From Asterochloris sp. CNOR1 (lineage: Eukaryota; Chlorophyta; Trebouxiophyceae; Trebouxiales; Trebouxiaceae): 64,000 nucleotides of DNA. Made by a program: the position numbers and the translations under genes. The DNA is taken from positions 1,674,001-1,738,000 of the forward strand of contig OZ017749.1 of NCBI GenBank assembly GCA_963969365.1, read 5' to 3'. The notes beneath the pieces were generated by a model. The model had not been told where the DNA came from. It saw only the letters and a program-made list of their open reading frames with translations, and searched no databases. This document shows positions 7,001-54,800 of this stretch, piece by piece (the first letter of the stretch is position 1; each line of letters opens with the position of its first letter).

Positions 7001-9205
7001 GCACTGCTGCCATCAGCGCGGCTTTGTGAGTGGCGTCCTGACAGCCCAGTGGTATGCACAAGCCCTGGTCATCGTTCACATGGCCCTGCTGGTCAAGCTG
7101 CACACTGCTGCTGCTGCTGCTTTTCTACATGTCTGTTGCTAGCTCGACTGCTGCTCTTCTTGCATTGCTCTTCAATGCAGTGCTGTCTGCAGAGTGCTCA
7201 TGCAAAAGGTGGCAAAGGAGTACATGGCCACACTCAAGAGCCCACAGGTCAGCTGACAGTGTGTGCTCTGCTGTACCTTGTAAGAGCGCTGAAGTTGTGT
7301 AGCGCAATGCTCTGGCTAAGTCACAGCATCACACCCTTTCCCTGTGCAGGTCAAGGTCCGCCTCCAAGCGGGGCAGGCAGGCGTGGCCGCCACTGCAGAC
7401 AGCATTGCCCAGCTGGAGACGTTGCAGCAGCTATTCGTCGCCAGAGACGGGCGCCTGCTGTCCACACTGGCACAGAAGATGGCGGCCGCAGGTCAGTGCA
7501 CCGTGCTGCTGTGCAGTGCAGACCAGGCACACCCGGAAGCAGATGACAGACCACCCCATGCCTTCACTGGTGGCTGCCTTTGTGCAGCCCTGACACAGCT
7601 GCCTTAAGTGCCTCTGGCGCTCAGACATGTGCTCCTTCAGGGGTTTTCAGGCGCGGCTGCAGTCCCGTTGTCTGATGCTTGTTCACTCTGCACATGGTCC
7701 CAATATGGCTACAGGTGCCAAGGAGGACACATTCGATGTCTGGATGAAGCAGGAAAGCGACACTGTCCAGGTGACATCTTTGCCGCACGTCGGGGACGAC
7801 AGTCAATTGTAATGCTGTCCTCTAGGCTCTCTTGCCCCTATGCCTGCTCGGCATGTGCGGTGACAATGCAGCAAGTGAAGCCCTATTTTCGCTGCCGTCT
7901 TTACTGGGCTGCCTGCCTGCAGGCTGTGGGTGTCTCATACGCTGAGAGGGAGACCCTGGAGGCCTGTGTGAGGACCATACAGCAGGTGACACCTGCTGCT
8001 GGCCTTCACCCTGGCAATACAGCCCTACCTGCATGTTCGACTTGAGTGCTTGAGGGATTGACACTGCAGTAAAGCCTTTCGCTGTTGCTGCAGGCCCCGG
8101 AGTCTGTGGCGCGCATCCTGAAGCCAGTGGTTGCTCTGTGGGGTCTGAAGCAGGTGGAGCAGTACCTGGGGTGGTACCTGTCAGAGGGCATGCTCAAGCC
8201 AGATGTGGGCAAGGCAGTCTCCCAGCACATCAGGTGGGTGGTCCAGGCCTGCTCAGCCTTCGTAACAGGGGAGGGCATTCTCAGGCCAAATCTGGCAAGG
8301 CCCTTTCGCAGCATGTTGGGTAGGCACTGTGCTTTGGTCAGAAGTTGCAGAGCAGGTGTCACTGCTGCCTTGCGTCACCTTGCACTGCTGGCTGAGAGGT
8401 GGGGTCCAAGCCAGATGTGGGTCGGCAATGCAGTATATCCAGTGGGTATCTCGGGCCTGTGATGGTGCTGCTTAACATCACTTGCTCTCTGGCCTGAGAA
8501 GGGCAGGGGCATGCTGCAACAAAGCGTGAGCAGAGTGGCGCGGCAGCACAGCATGGCTATAGGCTAGGGCTGCTGCTTGGGGTTTCAGTGACTGGCCTGA
8601 CAAGGGAAGCAGTAGCCGCAGGTCATATCTGGGCCTTGTCATGAACAGGGTGGCAGCCAAGGGCAGACAGCTCTGCCGCGCTGCCAATGATCAAGTACCT
8701 ATAATTGCTGTTGACTTTCAAGATATCTGCTGCGCAGATCCCTGTGCCATGAGCTGGCTCCCTCCTCTCAACGCTTATGTGAGTCCTTTGGCATCCCAGA
8801 TCACCTCATTGCAGCACCCATCGCTGGAGGTAAGCGTTGCTACCTGCACATCTGAGCAGATGGGACACAGCCCCATCTATGCACCTGGGGTGTGTGGACC
8901 AGGCACGTTCCCTTTTTTGCCCTGGCTGTGCTGCTCCTGGTCTGCTTCTGCAGATCAGGCAGGCACCGAGCCAGATGTACGCAGAGAGCACACATGTGAA
9001 GCTTTGTATGCAGGCACCGCCATTGCACACTTCACGCATGCAGCCAGGCCGCAGCTTTCTCTCCGGCATGTGCCTTATTGGAAAGCAAACAGTGCCTTGC
9101 GATATAGCTCGCCTCTGAGCTAGATGACTTCCTTTTCATGCAGATTGGGTCAAGTACAATGAGGTGGACAATAAGGGAGAGCTCATTGGTAGCGTCTTTG
9201 CTTAA
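1062..9205 (+). CDS. ACX: Peroxisomal acyl-CoA oxidase, ACX3-like, 18 exons
   Basis: Flavoprotein of the first step of peroxisomal beta-oxidation (acyl-CoA + O2 to trans-2-enoyl-CoA + H2O2). Exons: 1062-1273, 1825-1920, 2399-2496, 2971-3075, 3417-3622, 3950-4040, 4271-4364, 5058-5186, 5332-5442, 5961-6069, 6789-6904, 7193-7247, 7350-7491, 7715-7770, 7923-7985, 8094-8233, 8738-8829, 9144-9205. They sum to 1977 nt in one frame: 658 residues plus stop, near the 675 of Arabidopsis ACX3. Visible blocks: [13 protein letters not shown], the flavin-domain run [31 protein letters not shown], and [13 protein letters not shown], whose Glu (about residue 425) aligns with the catalytic base. Residues 14-22 (RIAALQRHF) fit a PTS2 signal; the C terminus (GSVFA) is not a PTS1. 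Intron 11 has a GC donor. An in-frame start further upstream is not excluded. Confidence 0.95.
4681..4712 (+). repeat. Short tandem duplication in acyl-CoA oxidase intron 7
   Basis: A 16-base unit beginning GAGGCAGTCAGTCC occurs twice head to tail with one mismatch. It has no evident function. Confidence 0.7.
6247..6555 (+). repeat. Degenerate tandem repeat (about five copies of 53-71 bp) in acyl-CoA oxidase intron 10
   Basis: Units start near 6247, 6307, 6370, 6441 and 6503. Each opens with a variant of GAGCAGGCTCAGCAGCTG, followed by a C/T-rich TGCC stretch and a CACA or GCAGCA tail. The copies are strongly diverged, and the array fills part of the intron between the exons ending at 6069 and starting at 6789. 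Confidence 0.6.
6905..7192 (+). other. Non-canonical GC-AG intron (acyl-CoA oxidase intron 11)
   Basis: The preceding exon ends GAC AAC AG and the next begins A GTG CTC ATG, giving the conserved EGDNRVLMQKV. At that exact position the genomic donor is GCAGGC rather than GT. No GT dinucleotide occurs between the conserved codons and the first in-frame stop downstream, so a GT donor cannot be substituted. Confidence 0.8.
8185..8465 (+). repeat. Three copies of the end of acyl-CoA oxidase exon 16 plus its donor
   Basis: The true exon end (8185-8233, reading [17 protein letters not shown], then gtgggt) is followed in the intron by decayed copies at about 8271-8340 (reading [12 protein letters not shown]) and 8396-8460 (sharing AAGCCAGATGTGGG and a downstream GGGCCTG). 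Starts are 86 and then about 125 bases apart. The second copy still translates into related residues; the third does not stay in frame. Confidence 0.7.
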
Positions 9206-11358
9206 TGCCACAGTTACTCCCCTGGCACTACACAGCGCACTCTAAATCTATGTTTGCTTTTTGATCAGGTCTTGTCTTGGCCTGCAACTCAATAGTGTCA
9301 GTCATGTCTGACCCCTTGTCGTCTGACACCATTATGAATCTTGCTGTGACCGCATGTTTGTAGACTCACCTTGTCTGGTGATGACTTGCCGTCTGCAGAC
9401 TTTCAGCCCCAGTCCAGCATGCCAAAACATCGCTGGCCACACCCTCCTCTCCAGAAAGCACCACTGAGCTGCCGCTGTTCAGCTCCATGCACAAGGCCAC
9501 GGAAAGCAGTGCGCCTGGTCCCTGAGTTGTCCCCTGAGCACATATGCACAGCCTTGACTCGTCTGTGGCAAACAGTCTGACTCCAGCTAGATGCTGCCTG
9601 TCAGTGCAGGTGTTGTGAGGCCTTAGTCACTAAAGTGAGGCCTCCCATGCCAGCGACCAGGCTCTCTGTAGCAGAAAGTGGTGGCACGCTCTCTGGTCCA
9701 CCGATGCTGAGCAATAATTTTGAGGTTGGCAGCCTGGCCATGACCTCCACCAAGACGCACGCCTTCTGCCAAATGTCTTTGTGGCACGCAGACACACCGT
9801 TGTTTGGTGCAAAGCATTGGGCTGGCGCATCAACTTGGCAAGCATGAATTGGCAATACTCAGGTGGCTTGCTGAGAGTTGCCGTAATATAGCACTGCGTC
9901 CAGTTGAAGGGCTACAACGCTGCTGGGCCAATCATCCTAGGCAAGGTTCGCATCGTGCAGCAGAGGCCTGGTCTGCTACGTTGTGCAAGATGGTTGGCAA
10001 ATGCAATGGCCCTGTCTCCCAGACTGGTGCCACATCAACGAGTAGTGCCGTCTGGCCCTGTCGTGACAGCAAACAATTGACCGGTAAATTAGGCCTGATT
10101 CTGTAGCTGCGGCACCAGGGGTGGAGTAGGTCAACCAACATAACCGCTTGGAATCTGCTGGCCAGCAGAAACGGGGTCGGCCCTGGCAGCACCAACAGCT
10201 CTCCACCCGATTCCGGCTCTCACGGCGGCAGGTGAACGTGCATGCCGCACCACCTGTCTGGCTGCCACTGCTCATCCTGCACAAGCGTTGTTCCGAACAG
10301 CTATTGCCTTGGGCTTTGCATGATGTACTGGAGCCCTTTCTGCCATTGGTCGTGCACAGTGCGACCTGGTGAGCTGGCCCCAAACCTAGCGCTGCCAACT
10401 GCAGACCACTGTAAAGCGCCTGACAAATCCCAAAAGGGCTCATAGAGACAGCAGCTGAACAAGCTGAGCCTGCGGGACGCAGACCTGTGAAAGAGCAGCC
10501 CTGAGCCGTCTTGGGCTGAGCTAGCGGCAGCTGCGATGGGCTCACGGCCTGGCAGTGTCAGCAAGGACTCGTGGAAGGCCAAGTCCCTGAGGACCACGTT
10601 TGGCAGCCAGTGCCTCAGCAGCCTCCCCACATCCCCGTCTTGCGGCTTTGGTAGCTCTCTCAGAGAAGCCAGCTCTCGGGTGAGGCCCCTGGTGGGCAGG
10701 GTTGCCTGCTTGCCCACTATGACCACCATGACACTGCTGGCTGCGTCCTGATGTGGGCAGGTTACTGGTCCTGATGCTTGGTGCATGTACAGTGTTTTCA
10801 AGGCGACGGCACACACAAAGCTCACAGCTTCTGTCAGCAACCAAAGTCCTTCATCACTTTGCCTGACAGCTCACAGGACTCAGCACACATAAGCTGCTTG
10901 CAAATGATGGCTCCAGGATGCACGCGACTCTGCTTCCAGCTTGAGCCAAGCCAGAGAGCAGCCGCTTCCAAGAAATGCCCGCTGCAATTCGCTTGCAATG
11001 TTCAAGTTCCTGCCTGTGGCACTTCCTGCTGCAGCGACTCCCTGCTTGCAGAAACACATCTCTCAATAAACAGACTGCGCCACCTCCTGGGACAGCCTGA
11101 CTACCCCTGTGAAGCTCCATGCTTCACACACATAGAGCAGGCATTGCTTGCCCTCTGCTTGCAGATGTATGTCTCGCTCAATGCACGGACACCAAATGAA
11201 CTGCGAGGCCAGAAGCAGCTCCCGGGCACAAAGCAGCCACCGCGCTTGCACTGCCTGCAGCCCTCCAGGGTGGACTGTGCCAAATGCACGGCAACCACCG
11301 GTCAAAGCCCTCAGTTCCAAAGGCACACAGCAGCCACTGCCCTTCCCCCTGCCTGCAG
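9206..11358. other. Poorly explained region between acyl-CoA oxidase and the STPGR gene
   Basis: It holds the 3' end of the acyl-CoA oxidase transcript, probably one or more 5' exons of the STPGR gene that I could not place, and the possible minus-strand gene listed at 9600-10845. I did not find a TGTAA poly(A) signal close after the stop at 9205. Nothing else could be recognised. Confidence 0.4.
9600..10845 (-). CDS. Possible unrecognised minus-strand gene
   Basis: Three minus-strand stretches have protein-like composition and plausible splice sites, but no family was recognised. The first, near 10530-10720, starts MVVIVGKQATLPTRGL, continues RLLRHWLPNVVLRDLAFHES and ends at a gtgagc donor after LLTLPGR. 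A short one near 10380 reads WSAVGSARFGASSP. A third (about 9640-9790) follows a CAG acceptor and reads KACVLVEVMARLPTSKLLL then IGGPESVPPLSATESLV. Order and junctions were not resolved and no clear terminal stop was fixed. The stretches could instead be noncoding sequence upstream of the STPGR gene. Confidence 0.25.
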
Positions 11359-11400
11359 ACGTATGTCTCCCCCGAGGTGGACCGTGCCAACTGCAAGGCC
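11224..11400 (+). repeat. Duplicated acceptor and exon start in the STPGR gene
   Basis: A block at about 11224-11290 (GGGCACAAAGCAGCCACCG, later TGCCTGCAG and TGGACTGTGCCAA) recurs at 11321-11400 (AGGCACACAGCAGCCACTG, TGCCTGCAG, TGGACCGTGCCAA). The offset is 97 bp, growing to 107 bp after a 10-bp indel. The second copy holds the working acceptor and exon start at 11359. A looser related copy (GCAGATGTATGTCTC) occurs near 11161. Confidence 0.65.
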
Positions 11401-14020
11401 ACGGGCGGCAACAACTCCCAGGGCGCCATCTACAAAGTGCCCAATGCGCTGGGACCCCAGTTCCTGTCCACCCTGGAGAGCGCGCCCATGACCGGGTTTG
11501 GGGGTTCGCAGCGTCCCAGCATGGCCACCAAGAGCGGCTTCCCAGGGCCGGGGGCCTACAAAGTCAAGCCGGGCGTGGGTGAGCCCTGCAGCCAGGGTCA
11601 AATGCCCTGCACCTGAATCTTGCATTCCGTGGCCAGTGGCAAGCTGTGCCCGGGCAAATTGCGATTGCGGGCATGTAATGTCAAGCACAGCGTACCTGGC
11701 CCTGCAGCTGATGCTCAGTTCCTGCATTTGCGGCCCTGCATCCAGCGGCCAGTCGTTGCCATGCGCTGCAGATGTGTGGACACAGGCCGCAAACCTCACC
11801 TGTTGCCTGGCTGTGTTGCCGCCTGCATCTGGGGTCCTACCAAGTCGAGTCAGGTGTACATCTGTTTGTGGCGGTTAGCTGGTGGCTGTCCCTGCTGAGA
11901 GGGTGTACAGCACTTGCTCCAGCATGCTGCAAGGGCCTACCATGTCAGGCCGAGCAGGCTAACACTTGGGGCAGTGCACTGGCAGCAGTGAGCAGCTTTT
12001 GGCTGAAGAAGCCTCGCTCTTTCGCAGTCGTACAACTGTGTCAGTCGCTCTGCCCGAAGTGCCCAGTGGCAGCCTTCTGTCTGAACTGGATAGGCGCATG
12101 CTCAGCACGAACTAAAAGCCTTATGATGGGGGCCAAGCGCATGTGGCACAACAAGCTGCAGCTCTGCATGCGCCTGCGGCATGAAGTAGGATGCAGCGGG
12201 CCTGGTGCATACCTGCAGTCCCAGCGTGCAGCAAAGGAGCAGGAGCAAGGTACTTGCATGTCTGTGGCTGGTGACAATCCTGGCTGGCCTGCAACCTGCC
12301 CCAGTGCCCAAGGCTGCCCTGCAGGCGATCTCTTCGAGTCCACCAAGCAAAACTCCCCCAAGCTACGCTTTGGCACCTCCCAAAGGGACGCTGCAGAGAA
12401 GGTCTTCATATCTGCAGACCACGAGAAGTCAGGGTGAGTTAGCAGCCGTGCACTGCTTGTGCACTCCCACAACATCGCATGCTGGGCTCAGCTGCCCACA
12501 TGCACCAAACCCTCATGCCTCTGGTGCACAAAATGAACATGCCCTAGCCACACCTTGCAGCAGCCATACCCTGGCACAGCAGGCTTAGGGGCTGCTGCAC
12601 AATACCTCACTGCTCACTCTGATGACATCCCTTCAGTGGACACTTGGAGTGGGTGGACTGCACAATAGAGATAGGAGAGATGTCCCGTAAGTGGGCTGCA
12701 GGTATGGGAAGGAGAGCCCAGGCCCTGCAGCATACAACAACCGGGGCGGCCTGGGCAAGCAGTACCTGTCTGATCGGGAGAGCCTGCCCGCATGGCAGAT
12801 GGGCAGCGAGAAGCGCTTCCAGTATGACTTTGTGAAGCGGGCGCTGGGCAGCCCCGGGCCAGGTGAGGGACCTGGGTGGGCACTGTGAGACAGGCATGCA
12901 GCAGGTGCCCAGTGTGAGGACCTCATGCAGGGCACTTGTCCCATGCGGGCAACAGCTGCATGTTGCGGGCGTTAGCTGCAGCGAGTGGGCAGGACAGCCC
13001 CGAAGCACCCTCAAAGGCGTGCTGATGAAGCAGGGCGCACCAGTGCACGTGCTCATCCTGGGGTACTGTGCATTAGGTCTGTGGCATGTCCGTGCATTCC
13101 AGATCGCATCTACTTGCCCTCACCCTCTGCCTGGGCACCTCCATTCTAATTCCTGGGCATGCGCTTGTCTTGCTGCTGCACTAGAAGCCTGGCCCTACTC
13201 TCTCACGCTACTACATGCGCATGTGCCCACTCCCACCCAGGTATGCAGTTCGGCCAACCTCACATTTCCTTTCAACTCTGTGCAAGCACCTACTGGCAGG
13301 CTTCAGGCAGGTGAGCTTCACCACGAAGCTGCCTCATATCACTGCATCTGGCTACGCCAGTATAGCGCCCAGTGCCTGCAGGTGCCTGCCAGTCTTGCAG
13401 CGCTGCTGACAAGGAGGTGCTGACAAGAAGGTGTTCTTCACCAGGGAGAGGTCCCTGCGAGGTCCCCCACATGTGCACACTGCATCTTGCTGGGTTGCTT
13501 TGATTACCAGCTTGATGCCCTGCAGGTGCCTACCGGTCGTCCAGTGCTGCTGGCAAGCAGGTGTTCTCCACAAAAAAGACGGCCCCAATCGTTGCATTTG
13601 GCTCTTCCACGAGGGACCAGACCAAGAAGATGTTCATCTCTGTGGATCATGAGAAGAGCAACTATGGCGAAGGATCACCAGGTCAGCAACATGGTGCTCG
13701 TCCGAATGCAGTGCTGTGCTTTTCTCAAGTGCAGCTGCCCCAGAAGGGTGAGTCTGGCAGACTGCTTGGCTGACTTGCTTGAACGGGCCATTGCCCTTTG
13801 TCACAGCTGTCATGCACTGCAGAGCCTGAGCGATCTGCAATACACTGAGGTGGGCATGTGTGTCTGATCTGTAGGCCCTGCCACTGCCAACCCTCCAGAA
13901 GGCATTGGCAACCAGCTGTTGTCCACAAATGAGAACTCCCCCAAGTGGGGCTTTGGCACTGGAAGGCGCCTAGGTACCTACGTCACAGACACTCCTGGGC
14001 CTGGAAACTACTACGCATAG
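11359..14020 (+). CDS. SHIPPO / sperm-tail PG-rich repeat (STPGR, ODF3-like) protein, 5' end unresolved
   Basis: STPGR proteins bind microtubules, commonly in axonemes or as microtubule-inner proteins. Exons seen: 11359-11578; one ending near 12434 whose 5' border follows a GCAG near 12325; 12702-12862; 13525-13681; 13875-14020. They join in phase. Repeats carry the signature PGP-x-(A/G)Y: SGFPGPGAYKV, SPGPAAYNN, SPGPGAYRSS, TPGPGNYYA-stop. The repeat body also recurs: RFGTSQRDAAEKVFISADHEKS beside AFGSSTRDQTKKMFISVDHEKS. A further SGPGAY motif near 12195 may be an exon I could not join. The N terminus must lie upstream of 11359 in an unplaced exon. TGTAA at 14175 is a candidate poly(A) signal. 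Confidence 0.85.
13274..13600 (+). repeat. Decayed tandem copies of an STPGR exon start inside the preceding intron
   Basis: The true exon beginning at 13525 (GTGCCTACCGGTCG, then GCAAGCAGGTGTTCTCCAC) has a decayed copy at about 13376-13455 (GTGCCTGCCAGTC, then GAAGGTGTTCTTCACC). An older copy lies at about 13274-13345 (GCACCTACTGGCAGG, then GGTGAGCTTCACCACGAAG), whose continuation VSFTTKLPHITASG matches VFSTKKTAPIVAFG of the real exon. The old copies contain in-frame stops. Confidence 0.7.
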
Positions 14021-14257
14021 GCAGCCAGAATTGTGGTCTTCAGCAGCCTGTGTGAACAGCATTGCAGCCCTCAACGTCCCCCAGGCTGCCTGCTTCCAGC
14101 AAGCTAGCATCCCTCAAATGTTCCTTTCTCATCTCACGACCTGCCCAGCCCAGGAAATGTGCAAACTCATCAGGTGTAACAGCGGTTGCAGCCTCTCAAG
14201 TTGCATGGGCATGCGTGCTGGTGGGGAGGGGCCAGAAACAGGGCAAAGTAAGGGCGG
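14021..14257. terminator. Convergent 3' region of the STPGR gene (+) and Ku70 (-)
   Basis: 237 bases separate the two stop codons. TGTAA at 14175-14179 on the plus strand is the expected chlorophyte poly(A) signal, 155 bases after the STPGR stop. I did not see the matching signal for Ku70 here, so Ku70 may use a variant or end further left. Confidence 0.55.
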
Positions 14258-17200
14258 TCAAACGGCTCCTAGATGAGCTTGTATTCTCTCGACCAGCTCA
14301 GCCTTCTTCCCGGTCTTCTTCAGGCTGTTGGCTTCAAGGTAGAGCTTGAGCTTGTCCACAGTAAGTGTCCCCAATGTGTTGGCAGCTGCCAGGGCCTGCA
14401 TGGTTCAGTAGCTGGCTGAGAGGAGCGCAAGGGTGCACCTGAATCACACAGACCATGCAGGTCTTGTCAAATGACAAGCTGCCAACTGCAGCCTGGAGCA
14501 ACAGCACAGCTGCCCCTGCTATTGCCTCAGGGCACGCGTTTCTCCTGGCCAGCCCTCCACCTGGAATCACCAGCATCCAGCAGACAGTACAATTGCAATA
14601 GAGTGCTTCTCAACCAGAGTCCAGCATGCCGCTCTCTGCCGAGGCAACAATATACAAGCCAACTTCAGCTCTGCTGCAAATTTTCGCCTCACTGTCTCTC
14701 CAACTCTGCCGTTATCTCTTTTCTAGGCAAACCAGCTCAGCAAATAGACAAACCAGTAGCAGCACGCACCTTTATGTCCCTAGTTGAGATTTTCCAGGCG
14801 CTCAAGAGGCTTTGTGTTCGGGTACTGATAGTCCTTTCAGGGAATACAGGCCACAAAGCACCTGGTGGCTATGTTCTGTGAGGAGGCAGCCCCTTTCCAC
14901 CTTGAATCGACTGCGCAGCCTCTGCAAAACCTTGTTCAGCTCCTCAGGAGCCTTGCGATGATGCATGGGTAGGTGTGCTTGAATCTACAGCCCAGAATGC
15001 AACCTGGAAGGAAGGAGGCAGCCTCTCCCGCCTCAACCGCCTCAACTGCGGCTCACCTTCAGCCCTGGCCTTGCAGTTGGCGGCTGGTTGAGTGTGCTTG
15101 GTACTACAGGCCAAAGTCAGCAAATGTCGGCAGCCATGCCCTACCTTGAAGCCCAGCTCCTCAACCTCTGCCTTAACCTTGTCCTCAGGGGCCTTGCGCT
15201 TAGCGCCTGCAGCCTTGGGCTTGGGCGGTGGAGAGACCTGCCAGCCGACTGATGCCTTCAGGGCAGGTACAGATAGGAGTGTGAGCTTGCTGCTCAGCAT
15301 CCCTGGACCTGGGCAGTGACAAGGCGTCCCCACCAGAAATGCCTGCCTGGCAGGCACACATGAATCTGTGACATTGCCAATGAGCAGCCTAGGGCTTGTT
15401 CAGCAGGGGCGCCTGCCAGCCAAGTGATGCTCACAGCCGCTCTCATTCTCCAACACTACCAGCCTTCGGCGCTGAGCTCTGCAGCTGTGTCTACCAAGCA
15501 GGGCCAGGGCCCCAAGATGAGTGCCTTAACCCTGTGACAGAACCCAGTCTTGGCAGCATTGTCCGTACGGTCTCACTTTGAACGCGTCTGCCCGCTGCAG
15601 GCGACTTGCATCCAGCACCTCTGGCTGAGTCATGTCCTCAAACTCCTCCAGACTTGAGGGCTCCTCATTCAGGGCAAATGCCTCCAGAGCCTGCAGAGGC
15701 AAGCACTTGCATCCCCCATCAGCCTGGCCGGAGGCCCTGTGGCACAAGGCCGCTTTTGGCCGGGCATGCAGCCCTATCAGAGGGAAAGTCTAGACAGTGT
15801 GACAGCCTCTACACGAGGGCAGACGCCTCCAGCGCCTGCTTCAGCAGGCAACTGGCTCAACAAAGAGCTGCCACATCTGCTGCAGCACAACCACGGTGAA
15901 GAGGTGTGCAGTCATGCATCATGATGACACTGCTTGCACATCTACATCGGATAGCACCCCTGCTTGCTGCAGCACATTGACGCGGCATGGGAGGGTTGCT
16001 TCCTGCAGCAGCCAGCACAGCAAGGCACACCTGGCGGCAGCAGGGACCAGTGCCAGGCAGACTAGATCCCAGCTCAGGCAGCCACCTCACATGGCACTGC
16101 AGCTTTGAGTTGCGGCATAGGCTGCGCTGCAGTCGTTCAGAGCTGGTGTGTGTCAAACCCTTTGAAGTGGACTACATAATGCGTACATGCAAACAAGGAC
16201 CACCTGGACGTCCATATGCAACTTACCGTGAGTTGCAGCCTTGCAGCAGGCGCCCACATGCACCTCCCTCTAGGTCTTGACAAGCCTGGGCAGAAGTGCA
16301 ATTCCAAATCAAACATGCTGCTCCCCCCTGTGGTGAAGCTGCACGGTGAAACTCTGCATCGCACCTCTCCAAGACGAGTACTTTGCACTCTACTGGTGAC
16401 AAGCAACCCCTTTCCGGTGTCCCACACACCTGACAAACAAAGTGCTCTCGTAATCAAAGTGAATGCCTTCACCAACCTCATAGTGGCGCTGCAGCCTAGG
16501 GTTGGGAAAGTCATCTACGCTGTACTCCAGCAAAGCCATCCCATCCAGCATGTAGGCAGCTGCCTCAACCTGGTTGAGCTCAGCATATGGGGCGTCGAAG
16601 CCCACGTAGCTGCTGTCTCGCTCAGGTTCGCGGATGTCGTCGCCGTAGGGCATGAACAGCATATGCATGCCAGGAGCAGCAAGCTGCGCAGCAACAATGA
16701 AGAAGTGAGCTCGACAAGCCTCCTTGTGGAGCTCAAGACAGAGAGGCACCCATGTGGGAGTGCGTCACCAGCTCAGGTGGAGAGTCAACATCTGCCTGCT
16801 GGGGGCGTCCACCTGCATTGACAGGACACCAGGGGAGTCAGCGATGGTGTGACACGACCTCCTGCAGAACAGAAGAAAGGTTGCTCCAATCAATCATCAT
16901 CTGGACAGCATCCGCATGGCAGGGTCACCAAAGAATAGAGGCAGCAAAGCAGAGCTGCGCTGTCTGTAGGTGAGTTGAGCCCCTGTGAAAGAGGGGCAGC
17001 ATGGCCCCAAGCGTGTGCAGGTGTTTACAGACAGTACGACCACCCAAGGAGGCAAATTGTGCAGGCAGCATGGGCTCAGACCAACACAGCAAGGCTGAAC
17101 GACAGTATGTGCATGTCAGACGCTTGTCCACAATGGCAGAGAGCAGGGGGGGTGTACATACCCACTGACCTGCGCAGTCAACCCTCTGGCAGGCTGCACC

Positions 17201-20200: not shown

Positions 20201-23200
20201 GCAGCGGCAGTAGGCCCCATATATGCGCGCCCTGGGCATTGTGCAGGCCAATCACATTGCAGGCAGGACACAAGGCCCAGCTTGTGAAGGGGAAGGAATA
20301 GGCCACCCCAGCCAGACACTGGGCCAGCATGGATCATGAGGGCATGCAGGCACCTTTCAGCCACCCCAGCATAATCAAGTTGGAGTTAAGGCATGACTTG
20401 ACCCAACAAAGTTGCTGCAGCAGGTCCCTGCTCTAGCTGAGACCACTGCTGACTGCTGCCATACCACAGCTCAGACGGCGACCAGGCAGCCACCACCACT
20501 GCTCAGCGTGCTCCCATCCTGGCAGGATTGCAGATGCAAGAGTGGCAGACCTGCAGTCTGAATATTGTGCCCCAGGTGCTGTCCTCACTGTCAGCAAAGG
20601 GATTGCTGTGCTCATCCTGGCCCTCATGTGGTGGGGGCAGGGCGTCTGCCCAGAAGGCAGTGTTGTTCCAGGGGGCCCCCGCGTCCACCATAGAGAACAG
20701 CTCCAGGCGCACGCCTGACTGGGCCAGGCGATCCAGCTGGCCGATTGTCTGTTCCCTGCAGCCATGCCAGGCAGTTTGGTACACTGAGCAAGTCAGGCTG
20801 CCTATCATGGTAGGCTGGCCGCCTGTTCCACCCCGGTGGGGGACCCTTGACAGTGTGTGTTGGCAAGTGGGTGCCCTGCGCTGAAGGGCCCAGCTGCCTG
20901 CTCCCTGCAGCTTGGAGGCCTTTGATTGACTTGACTTGACAAGGGGCTGCCTTCATGCTTGATGGGTGTCAGCTGGTTGTGCCCTGCAGCCAGGCTAAGG
21001 GGGACGATGGGACAGCAAGTTGGCAAGTGGCTCGCGCTGGCAGGCTTCCCCTGACTGCAGTCGACAGGTGGCACAGCAGCCAGCATGAACTTAGCCCAGA
21101 TATGCACCTTGGCCTGGCCGTAGGCGGCCTATAGCCATGCTGGTTGACGCTAAACTGAAGCAACTTTACAAATTCAGCGTGACGTGTCACTTGTAATCTG
21201 CAGTCAGGGAGGGTTCTGATAAGCAGAGCAAGCAGGGGGCTGTGTTGAGGCTGGAGCTCTGGGTGATCACCATCTGCCTGCGGCCTTTGCACTGAATGAA
21301 CAGCAACGGTTACGTCAATGTCAGCAGGCCACCGACAGGGCCAGGACAAGGCTGCTCCTGGATGAAAGGGAAGCGGGGCCAGCAGTTGCAGTCTACAGTG
21401 GATGGCAGGTGGAGCTCTGCTGCTCCATGTTGCTGCCGGTGGGATTGAGCAGAAGCAGCTTGCCTGCGGCTGCAGTGTCGTCTTTGACACCCGAGCATTC
21501 CCTGGTGGTCATCTCACATGTGCTGCAGAGCCAAGTGACGCGCTGCTCTTGGCCATTCACCGGCCCTGCAGGCTGCGCCTTGCGAGCAGCAAGTGCAGCA
21601 GAGGCATGTCAAGCACAGCTCTCCAGGCTCACCACCCCTGCGCCTGTAAATCACCTCTCCACGGCTGACTTGAAGGAGGTTCTCTTTGGTGAGTGGATTA
21701 GATCTGTGGACAGGTCCCAGAGTACCACCCAGCGGCAGGCAGGCAGCACTCTGCCACTACCTGACCAGGCGTGCAGGCAGCCCCAGAGAGTCACAACCGG
21801 GCGCAGGCAGCTTGACGCTCACCACCCCTGCGCCTGCATCTCACCTCTCCACGGCTGTCTTGCAGGGATTCTCGGCCCGCGTGAAGATCATGAGGCGCTT
21901 GTTGAGCGCTTTGCCAAGCCCTGTGGACTCCCAGGCTGTGCCAGCAACCCACAGGCCGTACTTCAGGTCTTCTGGTACAGCCTCCCGGAACGCGCCCATG
22001 GTATTCTCAAAGGTGGATCCTGCACGTGCCGCATGCAGGCATCAACCTGCAGGGATGGGGGCAGAGGACTTGCCTCAGCATAGCCACAGGCCTTGACTTC
22101 CCCGCAGTGGTGGGGCAGCATACCATCCCTGCCTTCTCCATCATCAGCTAGAGCTACTTCACAGACGTGCTGGACCTGGCAATAGGTTTGGCATATGTAA
22201 GCTGTGGGGCCCAATCCACCCAGAAACAGCAACTCAATGCTGACGCGCACTGGTTGATACAAGCCATGTGATCCTCTTGATCCAGACTGCAGGCCATGCG
22301 CTGCCTAGTGCTACCCTGCAGATGCAGCAGACTGCTGCCAGTGCCCATGAGGAGTGTCGTGGGATGCGACCTCTGTCAGGCACTCACCTTCTCGCAGATT
22401 CTCCAGGTCTCTGATAAGCTTGGCGTCTGGCTCTTTCAGCGCCTGGAACTCATAGACGCCGTCAAAATTGTTGTCGTTTTTTCTGTTGCCCTGCACCAGG
22501 AAGAACACGTGTCTGGTGGTGCTGTTGCCAGCGGAGGGGAGCAGATGCGGACTGCGCTGCATGCATTTTCTCTACAGCAGTAACAGCAGTTGAGGCAGGG
22601 AGCACGAGCAGGCCGACCTGGCCGCAATTTTGCTGCAGCAAGTCAGGTGCAGCTACTCAAAACATAGCGCAACACCAATATGCGATATAACACAATGCAG
22701 ACCTTGATAATACGGCTTGTAAGGAACAGGTGAGCCACTCACAGTGCCATAGAAAACAATGCAGACTCTGTCCATGCTGCCGCTGATGATCAACCTCTTG
22801 ATGAAGGCCACAAGGCAGGTTAGTGTGATGGTCATCCAAGATGCTGCTTTGTCCACTTTCAGCGCCTGCATACAGTGCAGCTTCTGTGAGGCTCCAGCTA
22901 GAAAGTTCACACAGTGCAGGTTGGCCCTGAAACATGTCCTGCTCCAGCTTCCTCTGCATCATTCTGTCCAAGAACAGCCAGATCACCCTGTAGATGCTGA
23001 TGCAGAGGGTCAGCAAGTTTCATCACCTCTGGATCAGAAATGTTTGCTGCTATATGCATTGGTGCAGAGGCATCTACAAGGAACACAATATGATCCTTCG
23101 AAGACTGGGACTTCTGCAGCCAACGAAGCAACATGTCTGCACGGTGCTATTTGGGAGGCTCCTGTCCAAAAGCAAGATTCCAGCATGCACCTCCAGGCTG

Positions 23201-27212: not shown

Positions 27213-29904
27213 TCAGTCGCTTCCATTGGCATCGTTGTCACGCTTCTGACGCCAGAGCCAGAAGGAGTAAGCAACTCCGACAAATACAACTGCAGAATGG
27301 CAGGTGCAAGCTGGTCAGCAGGCCATACAAAGCCAGCAGGTGCAGCCAGGTAACACAGCAAACTCTCCTTGTCAAACATCTGATCAAGAGGCCTTCTGCA
27401 TAGCCGACAGGCAGTGCTAGTGTGTGGAGGACAGAGCAAACCACCATGCTGCACCAGTGGCAACAGCCCTCAGCAACAGCAAAGCATCCTCTGGATGCAC
27501 AGCAACTGGGCAAAGCCGACTCACATCCAATCACGGCCTTGGACAGCGAGCTGCCCGCAGTAAAGAAGTCGGCTGGCACCAGGCCACTGCCTGTCAGCAT
27601 TTCACGCTCCCGTACAGTGTACTTCCCGGCAGGCAGCTTGATGACTTGGCGGGCTGCAGGCACATGGAGGTCTTTATGTCCATGGCAAATGCTGTTGAGT
27701 TCATGGTAGAGGCATCACAGTTCTGTGGTATCATGCAGGCTGCAGCTCACACCCTGTCTGAATGGCTACACAGCAGCGGTCAAAAAGCCTGCTGCACACC
27801 AGACGTGGACAGCAGGGCACACTGGCAAGGCAGCCCTCCCACCATGAGACTCGCTGCCCGTCTGCAGTGAGCTGTGGTCGTTGTGCCCCACCTGTCAGCT
27901 CGCCTAGCTGGGCCCCTCTGCCAGGCTTCCCAGCCAGCTCGATAACTAAATTTCATGACCACTGCTCTGCTGCTGCCCGGCAGCGCTTGACTCCTGCTCG
28001 TCATTGGTCCAGCTTAATTTGACAGGTTCAATAGGCTAGGTGGTATGCCTTTGCTGCAGCCTGGCGCAGCCCCACTTGTCAGCTCGTCCAGGTTGCACCA
28101 TCTGTCAGACTCCCCAGCCAGCGCAACTGTCAGACCACATGACCCTTGCTCTGCTGCTACCCTGTTGGTTGTGCAGCCTCGTTACCAGCTCTGGACAGCC
28201 AGCTTGACCTTGCCGGTCGACATGCGAGCGGCAATTGTATGCTACAGGCCTGCGCAGCCCCACCTGTCAGCTTGTCCAGGTTGACCCCTGGGTTGAGCGC
28301 TTTCATCTCCTCTCGGGAAATATTGCGCTTCAGGATGATGTCACTCAACACCTCTCCCTCCCGCACAGGATATGTCCTGCAGCCAAGACAGGCAAAGCTT
28401 AGCCGATGATCGAAATTGAGGAAGGGCTTGCTCGCAAGCCGTGTCTGTTGGGACAGACTGTTCACAGCCTCCCAACCAGGCAGGGTGTGTCCTGAAGTCA
28501 AGGGGAGTCTGGCTTGAGCCTTGGCCACCGGGGGAGACACGCTCATTTTTGGGCCGAGTCTGCTGTTTGAGGCTGTGAGCACCTCCCAGAGTTGGCCTGG
28601 TGAGGTGGCAATGTTGCATGGCTTGTGCTTAGCAAGTGTACCACAGCCAATCTCACCATGCAGAGCTGCTGTGCAGTGCGCATGGCAAGCTCAGAGTGGT
28701 GTGGAAACACCAGAAGCTGCTCTGCATTGCAATCTTCGGGGCTTCCAGCCCAAAGGCTGCACATGCTGTCATCACGCTATGCAGATGCCAACATGCAGGG
28801 CAAGTCTGCAGCTGTCTAGGCCTGCTCTTAGCATGCTTCTGAGTGGTGGGCCAATGCCGACCAGAATGTTGCGGCCCCTCCTGGTGGTTCGGGCAGGGCA
28901 TAGTATAGGGTCTTGGGGAGATGCCAGCTAGAGTGTCAGAGTGCTGCTTGTGCATGACGTATGTGTGCATGGCCTGCCCAGTGTGCATGCAGGGCCTGGA
29001 ATGTTGTTGACAGCACGGAGCCATACACCATACAGAGCCGTGCAGCACACAGAGCTGCGCATGGCAACTTCAAGCAGGCACATCTGCAGTTCATGGGGCC
29101 GGACTGCGCGTCATGCCCACAGCCACTGGCTGGCTGTGCAACAAGAGGGTCCGCAAGCATGCTGACACGCTTGCGCCTGCCAGCGTACCTGTAGGTCGTG
29201 GGGCCGATGCCAGCCAGGATGTCGTGGTCCCTGTCGGACAGCTTGCCGCCGGGCATGAGGATGGTCTGCCCCTCCACCAGCCGGTCTGGGTTGATGTCAT
29301 GGTTCAATGCCTTCAGCTCGGGCAGGGAGATCTCTGCAGCAAGGGGGGTGGTACAGCCCTGTCGTGAGGGCGCCTGAGCACCAGTGGACTCGCTTGCATG
29401 AGCAGGGGCATGGCTAGAGTGCCTGCTGGCATGCCTGTCTGCACAGGCATTGCCGGCAGTCATAGGCAGGCAGGCTGCAGCACCAGATGGTAGCTAGATG
29501 GTGAAGCCTGGGGCTGCAGGGATACACCCACAGAAGGTCCATGCCCAGCACAGGGTGCCTCTGTGGCGATGCTCCCCTGCTGAGCTGATAATGACCTGCG
29601 CATCCTCAACAATGCTGATGGTCACCCTCGCCCCATCTCATGGGCGAGGCACCTCAGCTGGCATCGCTTCTGCTAGCTATTGGCAAACAGCAGGCATGAG
29701 CACCCTGCCAGCCTTTTAGTTCAGAGTTGCCTTGCCTCTTTTCTGAGCGATGGAGGCAAGTGTGTCTCCCTTCCGCACTGTGTAGGGCCGAATCTTGAGT
29801 GTGGCTGAGACCTGTACGGTCCCCTGGCGTCCTTTGCTGCCCTTGATTGACCGGGTCTGCCTGAGCAGGGTGCTGCGCCCATGCAGGGCCCCTAGCTGGT
29901 GCAT
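27213..29904 (-). CDS. Plastid-targeted LysM-domain protein with a C-terminal membrane anchor
   Basis: LysM domains bind GlcNAc-containing glycans such as peptidoglycan or chitin. ATG 29904 starts MHQLGALHGRSTLLRQTRS, a transit-like leader without acidic residues. LysM 1 starts PYTVRKGDTLASIAQKRG (near 29770) and continues on another exon as ISLPELKALNHDINPDRL and VEGQTILMPGGKLS (near 29260). LysM 2 starts TYPVREGEVLSDIILKRN (near 28360), continues SREEMKALNPGVNLDKLT (to about 28267), then VIKLPAGKYTVREREML (near 27620). The last exon encodes VVFVGVAYSFWLW followed by RQKRDNDANGSD-stop: one membrane helix with a short charged tail. The gene diverges from UROD across about 1.6 kb. A plastid site is inferred from the leader; a cell-surface site is the alternative. 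Confidence 0.83.
27881..28300 (-). repeat. Three copies of a LysM exon end with its splice donor
   Basis: The true junction (28251-28290: GGTCAACCTGGACAAGCTG, then ACAG|GTGGGG on the minus strand, reading VNLDKLT) recurs at 28062-28100 (GCAACCTGGACGAGCTGACA) and at 27881-27916 (GCGAGCTGACAGGTGGGG), each about 185 bases deeper in the intron. The lower two copies also share sequence beyond the junction (CATGACC…TGCTCTGCTGCT at 28114-28165 and 27930-27982). Confidence 0.8.
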
Positions 29905-44200: not shown

Positions 44201-47200
44201 TTCAGGCTCCACGTCACAGGTGCAGCAGCCCAAAATTGCTCCTCAGGGTTCACGGGGCCAGAGACATCAGCCCTTTGCTCAGCCTCAAAAGGCATTGCAG
44301 TGGAGCAGCAGCTGCCAGATGCGAACCTGGGTACACGAGGCCATACTTGTGGCCAGAGGCATTAATGGACACCACGTTCTTGAGGCGGAAGTCCCACTTC
44401 AGGTCTGGCTGCACAAATGGCGCCACAAAGCCCCCGCTGGCTCCGTCAACATGGATGCCCACGCTGAAGCCCTGCAGGAAGGCAGTGAACTCAGTGCGTC
44501 CTTGAAAAGGGCTGCCCTGTGCAAGCCAACCAGATCTGGGAATGCAGGCCTGTGCATATTGGATGGAGTGCTGTACTGACTATCTGGAAAGGACAGGGCC
44601 TGCTTTGCAGCTTTATATGAGCTAACAGGCTGGCATGGAGATCGACTTTTTGGTCAGCTTAAGAGCATGATTTGCAAGCAGAGAGCGCCACCAATCTGTC
44701 GGTGATGCATTGCAAGCCTTTCCAGAGCTGCCTGACATCAGGCTTGAGTCTCCGCTAGCCTACCTTGTCCTTGTTTAGCTTGGTGACCAGCTTGTCCAGC
44801 TTCTCAACATCCTGAAGCACACAGGCATGCAGCAATGAGACCAGCATATCCTGCTGCACACCCTAGTGCTGCGTCATGCTCGGTTTGGGTGTCACTGACA
44901 CACAGCTGCTGTGCTGCCGGTGCGAAATGGACGCAAAGGCCTCCGCCAGGCAGCCAGCACGATACGCAAACAGATGGCGCTTCCCCAACAGGGATTCGCC
45001 ATGCCATGCGATGCACTCAGCGAGGCAGGTATTGGACTGAGCATGCGGGTTTCAGCTTTTCTAACCTCATACTCTCCAGTGTAAGTGGAGCCCAGGATAG
45101 CACAGATGCCTGCACAGCCAAGGCAACCACTCAGTGGCACCAGAGACAGCACTTGATACAAGGCTTGGCAGCAAGACCCCGACCCCCCCCCCCCTCCCCC
45201 ACCCCCCCCCCCCCCTCTGCCAGGTTAAGGCTTGAACATGTTCTCCTGTTTTGCGCCTGTCAGCCCCCGCTCTGCACCCACCACTCTGGCAGCAGCTCGA
45301 GCTGCCTCTTGAGGCCAGTCAAAGCTGCCAACCACTGTTGCCAGAGCAGCGCCTTGCAGGGTGGCAGTGGCAGCCATGCCCCACCAGAGGCCTGCCACAC
45401 CCAGACCCACAGCGAACCCAAGCACACTGTCTGCTGTCTGGCAGTGCCAGCTCTCAAGCATTCAAATGTGGGTCTTTGGCAAACAGTGGGAGGCCAGAGA
45501 GCAGGGCCTGCCATCGCGGATGCAAGCTCAGGACAAAGATAAAACGCCTCAGATGTACCAGGTACCCACCAATGGTATTCTCGTCGCAGGCCTCTATGGC
45601 TGCCTCAGGTCGCATGACGTACGAGTCTTCAGTCAGGGGGATGAAGTGCTCCTCCACATCAAAGTACCGGGTAAACTTCTCCCAGCAAACCCTGCAGCAT
45701 AGTACATCACAACTTAATTCTGACCGCCTGCTGGGAGCTGTGACTTTTGGCAGTCTGCACCCAATGCAGCCGGTCATGGCGAAGCCTTTTGGCCCTGAAC
45801 AGTTGAAAATTTTATTCCAACAGGCCCGGCTGGAGAGGCAAGGGCTCCTCAGAACAGCATTTTTAGGGGATGCAGCTGCCTGCCCTGCAGTGCTGCTGCG
45901 CGTTAGTGCCTGACTGCAGCCTTGCCATCCAGGACGCAGTCCTGGCAGCTGCTGCTAGGTGGCCTGCTGTCTGCCAGGCGCAAATCCCAGCAGGTTCTCA
46001 GCACAGTCAGCTGACTGCACAGCATACAGCAGCAGCAGCCACAGCCTGCGCCTAGTCATCTGACCACATGCAACAGACACACATGCAAGCAGGTCCCGTT
46101 GTGAGATGCATTGGACCTAGCAGCTCCTGAGTAAGGGGCCTTGCTGTGGTCCTTTCCGGCGGACTTGGGCAGCCAGCAGTCGTCAAGGAACCAGAACATG
46201 CAACTGTGCGGAGTCTGACTCAACACAGCAAAGCGGTTCCACTTATACGATTCACAGGAGAAACCCAACCCCTCAGGGCCTGTGACTGTGCAGCAACAAC
46301 AACTCACTGGACATTGTAGCCCATGACCAGGTTGGGCTTGCTGTAGTCCTTGCCCTCAGCCTTCCGCTTAGCCTGCCAGCGCTTCTTCATGGCCAGCCCC
46401 GCCAGCATGATGGCCTCGCTGCTGCCCACTGTAGATGTGCCAATGGTTTCCTCAGGCTTGGCGGGGGAGTGGTAGAGGTCAGCCAGCATGGCAACACACC
46501 TGCAGGGCGGTGTGGCAGCTCATTGCACTCTACTCTTCTGTCAGGCTCAACAGGAGAATGGCACAGGTGATCTGCACAGCGTCATGCCAGCAGGCCAGCC
46601 ATAGAGACAGCTTGGTGGGCAGCTACCATGGCGCAGACCTGCAGGGCAGTGTGCAAGTGATGACAGTTGGTCCTTGTCAGGTACGGCTGAGGAGGGGTAC
46701 AGCGTTGGCCAGCACTGGCTGAGGAGGGTACAGCTTCAGCCAGCACACCTGCAAAATAGTCCTGCAGCAGCTTGCTGGGCAGCCAGCATAGCGGCACCTC
46801 CTGCAGATGGCTCAACGCCCGCAGAGCAGGGTTCAGCAGCAGCCCACATGGGCAGCTGCTACACCCACAGAGCAAGAAGTCTCCACATGTGGGGTGCTGG
46901 ATGGAGCAGGCCGGAGGGGGTCCGTCATGCTGAGTTAGCAGTCAAAGTAGGGGTTGGAAGTTACTCAATGGCAGGCCGCAATACTTCAACCAGCCAAAAC
47001 TGCAACGCTGCAGATGCAGGTCACACACAACATTAAGGAAGCAGCGCTGCAGCATCAGGTGCAGCATTCCAGAAAAGCTGCACCTGTTGGCAATCTCGGT
47101 GGATGAAGGGTAGATCTCCATGTCCACAAAGTTGACGTTGAGGGACTCGGCGATGAGTTTCTCAGCCTCAGGCTCCATCCAGGTGGTGCAGAAGGAGGCC

Positions 47201-50164: not shown

Positions 50165-50340
50165 GTCTGCAATGTCCGCCCTGACGTTGCAATATGCAAA
50201 ACTGTAAAGAATAGAATTTAAATGCCTCATCAAAGTGCAAAGGGGTGCAGGACAAGGAGGGAGGGAGATCAGCTGTTCATGGTATCATTGGCAGTCATGC
50301 TGCAGGTCACCAGCTGCACAGTATTGAGACAATAGAGGTG
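50165..50340. other. Short gap between the TLC gene and the next co-oriented gene
   Basis: 176 bases between the TLC stop and the next start codon on the same strand. Nothing recognisable. Confidence 0.35.
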
Positions 50341-51789: not shown

Positions 51790-51879
51790 GGGGGATGGAA
51801 AGAGTGAAAGGCTGCTACACGGCAGGCATTCGGCTGGTAGCACTTATGCCATTAGTGTCAGAGCATGATGACGGCCTGC
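51790..51879. promoter_or_regulatory. 90-bp gap between the lipoxygenase stop and the TLC gene start
   Basis: Both genes are on the minus strand. The lipoxygenase 3' UTR and the TLC promoter cannot both fit without overlap, so the TLC promoter probably lies within the last lipoxygenase exons, or its start codon is further downstream. Confidence 0.5.
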
Positions 51880-54800
51880 TCAGATAGAGATGCTGTTGGG
51901 CACGCCCCAGCCACGGCGCCCCTTGACAATCTCCTTGGATGGAACTGAGGGACGCAAAATGGTGTAGTCTGGGAAGCGCGCTCTTTTCTGCCTGCAAGAC
52001 AGCACTCTCAAGACACCAGCTTGGCGCGTGAGACTGTGTGCGCCATGCTCTAGTTCAGAAGGACGCATCGAAGGCACGGGCACAGGCAAACGGGATCTCA
52101 CACATGCAGCTGGCGCTGCTTTGCTCCAGCACATGTCACGCATAGCTAGCATGCCAGCTGGCCCCTGAGCCGACCCCTTATTGTGCTGTTCAAAATTGTC
52201 ATGAGGCATCCCAGAGGCTGACGTCAGCCCTGCCCTGACTGCTTGTGTGCGCTGCAGCAGCAAGCTGCAGTACAAACAACATGGCAAGCAGGCAGGGGCC
52301 TGCATCTCTCCTCATTGTGGTGGTCCACCACCTGGCAGCAGACCTTCAGCCAGCACAATTGGCTTCTGAGTGGTGTGCTCCCCCACAGCAATGGTTGCCT
52401 GCTCATAATGCTATGGGTTTCAGCATCTTGGAGGCGGGCGCTGCACCTGCCCTCTGGACTGTCCACAAGCGGACATGTGGTACCGGGAGGCAGGGGCTGT
52501 ACCTGCTCTCGTTGCGCTGACTGGGCGGCCCCCACAGGCCACGCCTTTGTCGCCTCAGATCATGCAGCTGCTGTGCAATGCAGCAATGGGTCATCCATTG
52601 TCCTAGGGTGCTGCAGCTGTCCTTGTTGCAGCAGGGCATGACCTGATGGCAGGTTTTGCATCAGCATGAAGATGTCCTGCCCCTAAACAGCTAAGGTGGC
52701 TGGCTCCATCTGTTCTGAATTGAGCTGCTGTCAGGGTTCAGGTGCTGCACGATACCTGCTCCAGACAAGAGGGCACTGGGGGGCTGCACCTGTCTTCATT
52801 GCGCTGGGCCATGACCTGGTCGCAGCGCGACAGCTCCACGCAGAAGGCGTCCCACTGCTGCAGCACCTGCTGCCCCATGGTCCATCCAGCGGGGCGCTGG
52901 TGCAGGTACTGCTCGTCGGGGTCATGTGTTGATAACAGCTCCAGGGCTGCCATCAGGGCAAGCGTCTCCTCCTGCACGTGCTCAGCACAGTCAGAATGGC
53001 TCAAGAGCTTGTCAGCTTGCCCAGGCCGTACAGGGCATCATTGGTCCATCTCCAGCACTGCCAGGCAGCACTTGTCCCTGCATGGCAGGCGCCCAACTCC
53101 AATTGCAGGCAATTGGAGTCTCCTGCGGCAGATCTGCACAAACGATTTGTCACCGCGCAGGATGGTGAGGACAGCAGGGCAGTAACAGCGCTAGGCAGGG
53201 CAGGTCTCAGACTGTGGCTTCTCAACATGTGCTCAGGCAGCTGCCACCCTGGCAGACACGAGAGACGGTCCAAGGGATTGCGTGCCAGCGGCAGGCAGAC
53301 TTTTACGTGTTTCTGTGCGGCATTGAGTTGTTCAGCCTGTGCTGCACACTATCAGGACATGTCTGCATTGGAGGGACCGACCATGACCAGCATGCCTGCG
53401 CTGCTCAGCAGGGCCGCATGCTGGCCTCAGTCGGGGAAGCTGCAGCCCTGCGGGCAGGCCATCACCTTGCTGGGCAGGCTGTCCAGGAGCTGCCGGTCCG
53501 GGTTGTACAAGTTCTCAGGGCTCTTGAGGTCGCCCGGCTCCAGCATGGGGCTGTGCATGATGGTGGGATGGTTGGGCATGAAAGACCTGCACCAGCAATG
53601 TAGCAAGGTGGGCATCGTGAAGCATCCAGATTGATGTCACACAGTCCTGGAGCAGGAGCTGGTGGCTGCAGTGCCGCAGGGAGTGAGGCATGGTGCGCCT
53701 GCCACAGTCACGCTGGCGTGCCAGAGTTCATAGATGCCAACAGCATGCCCAGCGTTGACGCAGAAAGTTTGCCCTGGATCCAGAACAGTGCTGCTTCAGA
53801 TGCTGGCAGCAGGACTGCAGAGGCAGGAGAAGAGCATCATGTCTGTCCCCAGTCACACGGGGCATTCCAGGCAATGCAACAGCTGCCGCAGGCTGCCACA
53901 CAGAGCACCATCGGCAGCGGATTGCATCTGTCCCCTACCAGTCTGGGACCACAGGGAAGGCAGGCTGAACCTGGCGCGTCTGCACAGTCCATGCTGCTCG
54001 CAGGAGAGAATAGGCAAAAGGCTGCTCACCCGTAGTCATACTGCCCGAAGTTGACGGCTGCATGATGGCAGGACCCCATCCAGATGATGGTGCTCAAAAT
54101 GAGGGCCAGGTCCTGCGGGTGCAGCAGGCACTATTCAAACGTCTGCAGCATGCCTCATGGCTCCTCAGGGCCACACAGCCTCATGCGCTGCAGTCTCCAC
54201 ACACAGCAGACAGACTGCAGCTTTGCTCCCAGCATGCCATCAGGTGAAGCCTGCCTGCAATGATACACAAGGCAGCTTGAGACTCTGTAAAAGCACGATG
54301 ACGCAGCCCCATGACGGCCCCTTGACTGCAGCCTGCAGCTGCGCCCCGCCTGCCCGCAGGGCTGCGGGCAGACCCAGCAGCAGATCCAGTCCTCTGCAGT
54401 CTCAGGCAGGGCCACCTCTTGCCAGATGCCTGAGCCCAGCCCCTAGCACTTATCTGATGCACTACCCAGCACGTCGGCAGCAGCCAGCCACCCCAGCACC
54501 CTCAAGCGGGTGCCCGCCCCTTTCCCCAGCCCTTGTCCGGCATGGCAAACCAACCCAGCCTGTCTGCAGCGCTCATCACGTGCAGGAGCTGTGCACGCAC
54601 CTCGCGCATATAGTGGCTGTCACATAACTACCCAGCACTCCGGCCGCAGAGCCCATGCCCACCTCTGTACCCTCAGGCTCAGGCCATCCCTCTGCCTTGT
54701 CCCTGTGCCCCTCCCTCACATCAGCCCACCACGCCTGCAGCTCTGCGTCACCAGCCAGGTCAGCAGGTCCCTGGTAGTAGATCCTCACATAGCTCTCAGC

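Follow-up and report, generated by a model that had tools for sequence, protein, structure and literature searches.

The window, that is, the whole 64-kb stretch of DNA analysed here, covers positions 1674001-1738000 of contig C4 in a 56.4-Mb genome of 21 contigs and has a GC content of 54 to 60% in 2-kb steps. It was studied together with 18 control pieces of 10 kb (L001-L018, one each from C1-C18), which brought the sample to 244 kb from 19 sources. Exons were predicted with an ab initio gene model that was trained on these 244 kb with no RNA input and was checked in part against Pfam. The first free training yielded 19% GC donors as well as short introns, possibly through a drift of the model, and was replaced by nearly GT-only settings for all results; the setting used predicts 413 introns in the sample. 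Under one setting the window gave seven proteins; six of these were searched against Pfam, each with a match: acyl-CoA oxidase, sperm-tail PG-rich repeat (STPGR), Ku70, LysM, URO-D and, as the sixth, a fused model joining lipoxygenase, DUF6823 and GAD. Of 20 control proteins, ten were searched in the same way and every one hit a family. A squalene/phytoene synthase match in one control piece, together with the richness of the genes in introns, points to a green alga as the probable source.

Copies of exon ends in the window genes

A preliminary description of this DNA had named acyl-CoA oxidase, STPGR, Ku70, LysM, lipoxygenase and GAD as genes in which a block containing an exon end and its splice site recurs inside the adjacent intron. 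Gapped self-alignment recovered the repeats in all six, and both kinds that had been reported occur, donor-side (e.g. Ku70) and acceptor-side (e.g. GAD). The list of six was nevertheless incomplete, as 17 of the 98 window exons of at least 40 nt have a copy.

In acyl-CoA oxidase (Pfam ACOX), gapped self-alignment pairs the end of exon 8094-8233 and its donor (8184..8238, + strand) with a decayed copy in the downstream intron (8271..8324, +; offset 87, 75% identity); a genome search with 8255-8335 returned no other matches. In STPGR (Pfam SHIPPO-rpt), the acceptor and start of exon 11359-11578 (11305..11455, +) are preceded by two decayed intron copies within 11112..11343 (+), at 11112-11251 and 11225-11343 (offsets about 194 and 98), and 11110-11260 likewise returned no other matches from the genome. 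Several overlapping decayed copies with offsets of 130-355 lie at 13301-13605 of the same gene; they make the exon model uncertain, and settings a and c disagree there.

The remaining cases are on the minus strand. In Ku70 (Pfam Ku), the end of exon 21845-22019 with its donor (21817..21873, -) has a copy in the downstream intron (21627..21684, -) at an offset of 190, with 88% identity over 58 columns; searched against the genome, 21627-21684 returned the Ku70 exon end as its sole other match. Exon 15145-15255 of Ku70 has an acceptor-side pair (15195..15403, -) at an offset of 87, the match spanning more than one unit. The LysM gene holds a three-copy tandem array (27885..28289, -) with a unit of 184-188, one unit of which contains the end and donor of exon 28264-28376, and the genome search with it returned the array alone. 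In lipoxygenase, the end and donor of exon 52790-52971 (52766..52834, -; Pfam Lipoxygenase in the same predicted protein) recur three times: at 52603..52652 (-; partner 52776-52825, offset 173, 78%), as a shorter copy at 52493..52519 (-; offset 287, 81% over 27) and as a distant copy at 52285..52350 (-; partner 52766-52834, offset 481-484, 71%). GAD exon 46308-46499 (Pfam Pyridoxal_deC in the same predicted protein) is flanked by copies on both sides: its acceptor side (46477..46566, -) matches a decayed copy in the upstream intron (46617..46702, -; offset 140, 68% over 90), and its donor side recurs in the downstream intron at 46109..46177 (-; offset 196). No other matches were returned from the genome by lipoxygenase 52580-52670 or GAD 46600-46720. 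A predicted GAD intron also contains a poly-C run of about 33 bases (45183-45215). For comparison, an intron of URO-D carries a tandem duplication that is wholly intronic (33191..33416, +; unit 104).

Taken together, the genome searches with six window copies returned no matches outside the copy's own locus, at a sensitivity so limited that the diverged neighbour itself was missed in four of the six and distant copies elsewhere could be missed as well. Within this limited sensitivity, a dispersed repeat or introner is unsupported for these six copies. Intron gain according to the AGGT model, in which the duplicated site bounds a new intron, does not describe the copies of the sample either, as they sit in the interior of predicted introns and apart from the predicted splice site in use.

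Excess over chance and arrangement of the copies

Chance recurrence had been judged unlikely, and the counts bear this out. Ungapped pairs with a score of at least 16 and an offset of 20-620 number 54 in the window, against 3.7 on distant diagonals (mean of six ranges) and 4.0 in order-4 Markov sequences (mean of five). The control pieces give 180 such pairs against 8.0 at distant offsets (the latter drawn from less pairable sequence, uncorrected); with a similar excess there, the window is not special.

The preliminary description had proposed a genome-wide comparison of introns with their flanking exons against a control. Run on the 244-kb sample, an exon-end scan that compares each exon end with its own adjacent intron and with length-matched introns elsewhere yielded a strong excess over the other introns. 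It covered 256 of the 413 introns; the other 157 were left out because the introns or the flanking exons were short. At a score of at least 18, 18 of the 256 donor-side ends matched their own intron (0.06 expected), as did 18 of the 256 acceptor-side ends (0.10 expected), and exon sequence alone still gave 15 and 13 matches (0.03 and 0.07 expected). Reverse-complemented ends gave 0 and 0 of 256 at this score and 1 and 0 at a score of at least 16; reversed ends gave none, and dinucleotide shuffles 0.05 to 0.15. The 149 introns backed by all three gene-model settings retain 12 and 11 matches. With intron-interior 60-mers as queries, 7 and 5 of 256 matched, against 0.09 expected for each.

A gapped catalogue of local pairs with offsets of 25-800 comprises 176 pairs in the 244 kb, or 158 after 18 low-complexity pairs were dropped; these are not independent events, since a three-copy array yields up to three pairs. 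Exon-intron pairs account for 93 of them, intron-intron pairs for 31, exon-exon pairs for 16, and 18 are mostly intergenic. Four equally wide distant offset ranges, which hold 0.88 to 0.64 as much pairable sequence as the local range, gave 4, 4, 1 and 2 pairs against the 158 local ones. Copies were found for 55 of the 356 exons of at least 40 nt (40 at a score of at least 25), on 14 of the 19 sources. Roughly every seventh predicted exon is accompanied by a worn duplicate of its end, often including the splice site, in the adjacent intron. Tandem Repeats Finder alone misses most copies, reporting six rows in the window and 21 arrays with a period of 20-500 in the 244 kb.

We give hardly any credence to an artefact caused by composition, by false exons placed in repetitive DNA or by chance recurrence of words like CTGCAG, and for the bulk of the copies it is refuted. 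Short predicted exons do lie inside arrays in a few places (L010 4411-4471; window 13401-13416), but the shuffled, reversed, reverse-complement, other-intron and distant-offset controls are all near zero, the introns common to all settings keep their matches, and in ten control proteins the best Pfam stretch overlaps 18 of the 25 copy-bearing exons. Chance and composition as such are ruled out by the other-intron permutation together with the reversed, reverse-complement and dinucleotide-shuffled queries and the distant offsets. The array around L010 4411-4471 has an offset of 61 bases and a pair coverage of 5.99, and the predicted 61-base exon that it holds is probably false.

The exon-intron pairs follow a strict geometry. 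Matches of 79 of the 93 cross the junction into intron DNA, which rules out RNA-derived exon copies made by reverse splicing; 35 pairs cross the donor only, 34 the acceptor only, 10 both and 14 neither. The copy lies downstream in 34 of the 35 donor-only pairs and upstream in all 34 acceptor-only pairs. One copy had been proposed to be kept as the working site, and this is what was found: in 68 of the 69 one-junction cases, judged by the predicted exons, the junction in use adjoins the exon, with the copy deeper in the intron. A donor-crossing block with an upstream copy was observed once among the 93 pairs, against about 10% when the same offsets are placed randomly. Direct local pairs outnumber inverted ones 125 to 4 (ungapped score of at least 20), and 51 pairs contain at least 15 columns of both exon and intron kind. 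The median offset of the exon-intron pairs is 140, and 31 of 60 well-covered pairs have offsets of 78-120 bases. Well-covered head-to-tail arrays are found in LysM (184-188 nt, three copies), L007 (119 nt), L004 (106 nt) and L002 (65 nt). The observed arrangement is what results when a tandem duplication spans one junction and splicing stays with the exon-side one. The orientation, the extension through the junction and the clean arrays thus favour the earlier proposal of tandem duplication across exon borders, although the borders need not have been targets.

The extent to which the duplicated unit fills the offset is less uniform: coverage is at least.8 in 33 of the 93 exon-intron pairs, and in 35 others, with short blocks, the remainder of the supposed unit matches weakly (mean z +0.39, SE 0.17; p<=.05 in 2/35). 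The Ku70 copy is an example: its 88% block of 58 nt fills part of an offset of 190 nt, and outside the block the match is not significant (p.095). Such cases would be expected if break repair had copied a short nearby block into the intron (repair-mediated proximal duplication or templated filler), so that the copies were not tandem units at all. This explanation, to which the weak remainders and a coverage below.75 in 62% of the 93 pairs both lend weight, appeals to a described process, since local duplications that include splice sites are reported in the consulted part of Pace et al. 2009 (PMC2671141). It would, however, also place copies upstream in donor-only and downstream in acceptor-only pairs, of which 1/69 was seen, and inverted copies are nearly absent here (4 against 125), although the same text of Pace et al. 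reports an inverted exon copy. Moreover, decayed tandem units give similarly low coverage in burst simulations (.59-.67 and.59-.65). On balance, we consider repair copying rather unlikely as the general explanation. In burst runs the remainder z was 1.23 and 1.08, and 0.65 with larger deletions; simple tandem decay by small indels only was accordingly rejected, as its simulated remainder similarity is too high, and larger deletions come nearer. The weak remainder thus points either to strong intron turnover by larger indels or to some events that copied a block together with a spacer, and some events may indeed have been block copying of this kind.

Decay of the copies and the question of targeting

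In exon-intron columns, identity is.764 at the first,.768 at the second and.709 at the third codon position; in the intron-intron columns of 51 of these pairs it is.704. Such values fit an exon that is conserved and a copy that is free to change, and a burst simulation yielded.744,.748 and.683 for the three positions. Of the 93 copies, 44 contain a stop or gaps whose summed length is not divisible by three. Stops number 11 in 1197 codons, against 18.8 expected (P.022) or 14.4 under a model with more transitions (P.19), and 24% of the differing codons are synonymous. With frames broken, stops present and so few changes synonymous, the copies are under no strong coding constraint. We therefore regard it as very unlikely that they function as alternative or mutually exclusive exons or as conserved decoy splice sites. 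Their stops are few under either substitution model, and in acceptor copies TGCAG has been preserved better than the bases around it (182/203 cells against 445/543 simulated), but this excess is modest and may stem from the general frequency of the motif; against function, in addition to the broken frames and the low synonymous share, the donor GT is kept no better than its flanks and only 10 of the 93 pairs span both junctions.

The copies are real, they are directly oriented, and their placement is strict. From this we infer that each event arose as a local tandem duplication at a random position, that the junction beside the exon was kept and the surplus copy decayed neutrally, and that the events belong to an old pulse that has largely ended; as a whole, we think this account is probably correct. 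Local direct duplications would have struck the genome at positions unlinked to splice sites. Those falling inside an intron or across one border would leave the coding sequence unchanged provided that the exon-side junction is still spliced, and such coding-neutral duplications would survive and lengthen the intron, while whole-exon duplications would rarely be retained as decayed copies. Surplus copies would decay more or less neutrally. As the exon copy is under selection, exon-intron pairs would fade more slowly than intron-intron pairs, and the borders would stand out today for that reason. The general mutational process invoked here is reportedly the one described by Messer and Arndt (2007), according to whom short insertions are mostly tandem duplications, and Achaz (2001) is said to treat the same process for intrachromosomal duplications; we know of no claim on exon borders or intron growth in either.

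The account was simulated with tandem duplications at random positions, a filter for unchanged coding sequence and subsequent neutral decay, the settings being adjusted by hand rather than fitted. Three burst runs gave donor/downstream, acceptor/upstream and neither classes of.37/.41/.22,.30/.41/.27 and.41/.20/.38, where.37/.37/.15 plus.11 crossing both were observed. Among the observed pairs, exon-intron ones outnumber intron-intron ones 3.0-fold (93:31). Burst runs range from 1.2 to 4.1 in this ratio depending on settings; a further burst, whose unit length was set after the offsets were known, produced 363 exon-intron to 124 other pairs, the latter including any exon-exon pairs.

These ratios bear on whether duplication was directed at splice junctions or at the transcribed ends of exons, with R-loops or the splicing machinery as conceivable agents. 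Exon-end queries do match their own introns more often than intron-interior ones (18 and 18 against 7 and 5 of 256), and random placement alone predicts 68 exon-intron and 46 intron-intron pairs where 93 and 31 are observed. Nevertheless, slower decay of exon-anchored pairs, together with the geometry, can yield such a ratio without targeting, as the 363:124 run and some of the other bursts illustrate, and the 18 remaining catalogue pairs lie mostly in the 55 kb of predicted intergenic DNA. Targeting is consequently not needed, as random positions, the coding filter and slower exon-anchored decay can suffice, and we hold it to be quite unlikely.

Untargeted tandem duplication accounts less well for pairs within exons. 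Exon-exon pairs number 16, against 6.7 by random placement and 0-3 in the model, and 10 of the 93 exon-intron pairs span a whole exon, against almost none in the model. This surplus suggests that a part of the duplications within exons and of whole exons survived, and some of these pairs may be protein repeats or false exons.

Age of the duplications and growth of introns

The duplications look old rather than ongoing. Young local duplicates are scarce in the assembly: an identity of at least 90% is reached by 1 of the 93 exon-intron pairs and of at least.85 by 6 of 93. Constant-rate duplication was rejected, since all four runs predict too many young copies, with 34/132, 61/297, 24/131 and 76/250 pairs (18 to 30%) at or above.85 identity; for the last of these, the difference from the observed 6/93 has a p of 8e-7. 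A pulse was added to the model because of this failure, and the 363:124 burst setting then gives 19/363 against 6/93 (p.61). An old pulse would be the simplest reading of the scarcity, which is itself the firmer of the two.

To our knowledge, intron growth without transposons is poorly measured, because neutral copies fade fast. Exon ends are held by selection, so their duplicates in introns stay readable for longer. Such duplicates offer a one-genome test of whether tandem duplication adds to the length of introns and whether it does so steadily or in pulses, and the many decayed splice sites left in introns could seed alternative splicing.

That introns can be gained through tandem duplication is accepted, according to the portions consulted of PMC4974935, PMC3443670 and PMC2891723. 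As outlined in PMC3443670, intragenic DNA is duplicated and the coding sequence is kept by splicing out one copy, which resembles the present case, and the potato example of intron gain also crosses an intron-exon boundary; there, however, a new intron is made, whereas here existing introns lengthen, the redundant junction decays and many introns are affected. The Drosophila novel intron positions (PMC2891723) are alike in that exonic sequence is duplicated and one copy turns intronic, but they are a handful of new introns found by species comparison, and decayed exon-end copies in old introns go unmentioned in the part of that paper at hand. Internal gene duplications across eukaryotes, as far as their summaries go, similarly alter gene structure by partial gene duplication; they concern the creation of introns and not decayed exon ends inside pre-existing ones. 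In the human genome, repair-mediated proximal duplications that include splice sites are described in PMC2671141, and these, like the short paired duplications of Thomas 2004 cited there, are short and local and can include exons or splice sites. According to the same excerpts, Pace et al. removed cases of 50 bp or less as tandem, saw an inverted exon copy and had a mean separation of 1.2 kb; here, almost all copies are direct and the median offset is 140. In the literature surveyed, mostly titles and abstract openings, we recognised no paper that treats copies of exon ends as a way for introns to grow, nor one that traces the lengthening of existing introns through decayed exon ends as dense as those described here.

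The preliminary description had further suggested duplication as a general mode of intron growth. By direct measurement, the stretches from the start of one copy to the start of its partner make up 13,197 of 134,876 intron bases (9.8%); a main role in growth would follow from the simulations. Introns adjoining a copy-bearing exon have a median of 333 nt (n=67) against 275 nt for the 346 others, a difference that is due in part to the greater room for detection in longer introns. The density observed in the sample amounts, for each intron, to 0.225 pairs of the exon-intron kind and 0.075 of the intron-intron kind, and two simulated rates that bracket it imply a model-dependent gross addition of 106 to 235 bases per intron, or 51 to 78% of the final intron DNA. 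We therefore put forward, as a tentative idea that may well prove wrong, that a past pulse of tandem duplications of about 100 bases, now nearly silent, could have built a large part of this genome's intron DNA (about half or more in the simulations), and that exon ends, as fixed anchors, would let the pulse be counted and dated from one genome.

Among the arrays with a period of 20-500 that Tandem Repeats Finder reports in the 244 kb, 4 of 21 have a match of at least 90%. One of the few young arrays, at L012 545-748, consists of three copies of a 68-base unit with a 94% match.
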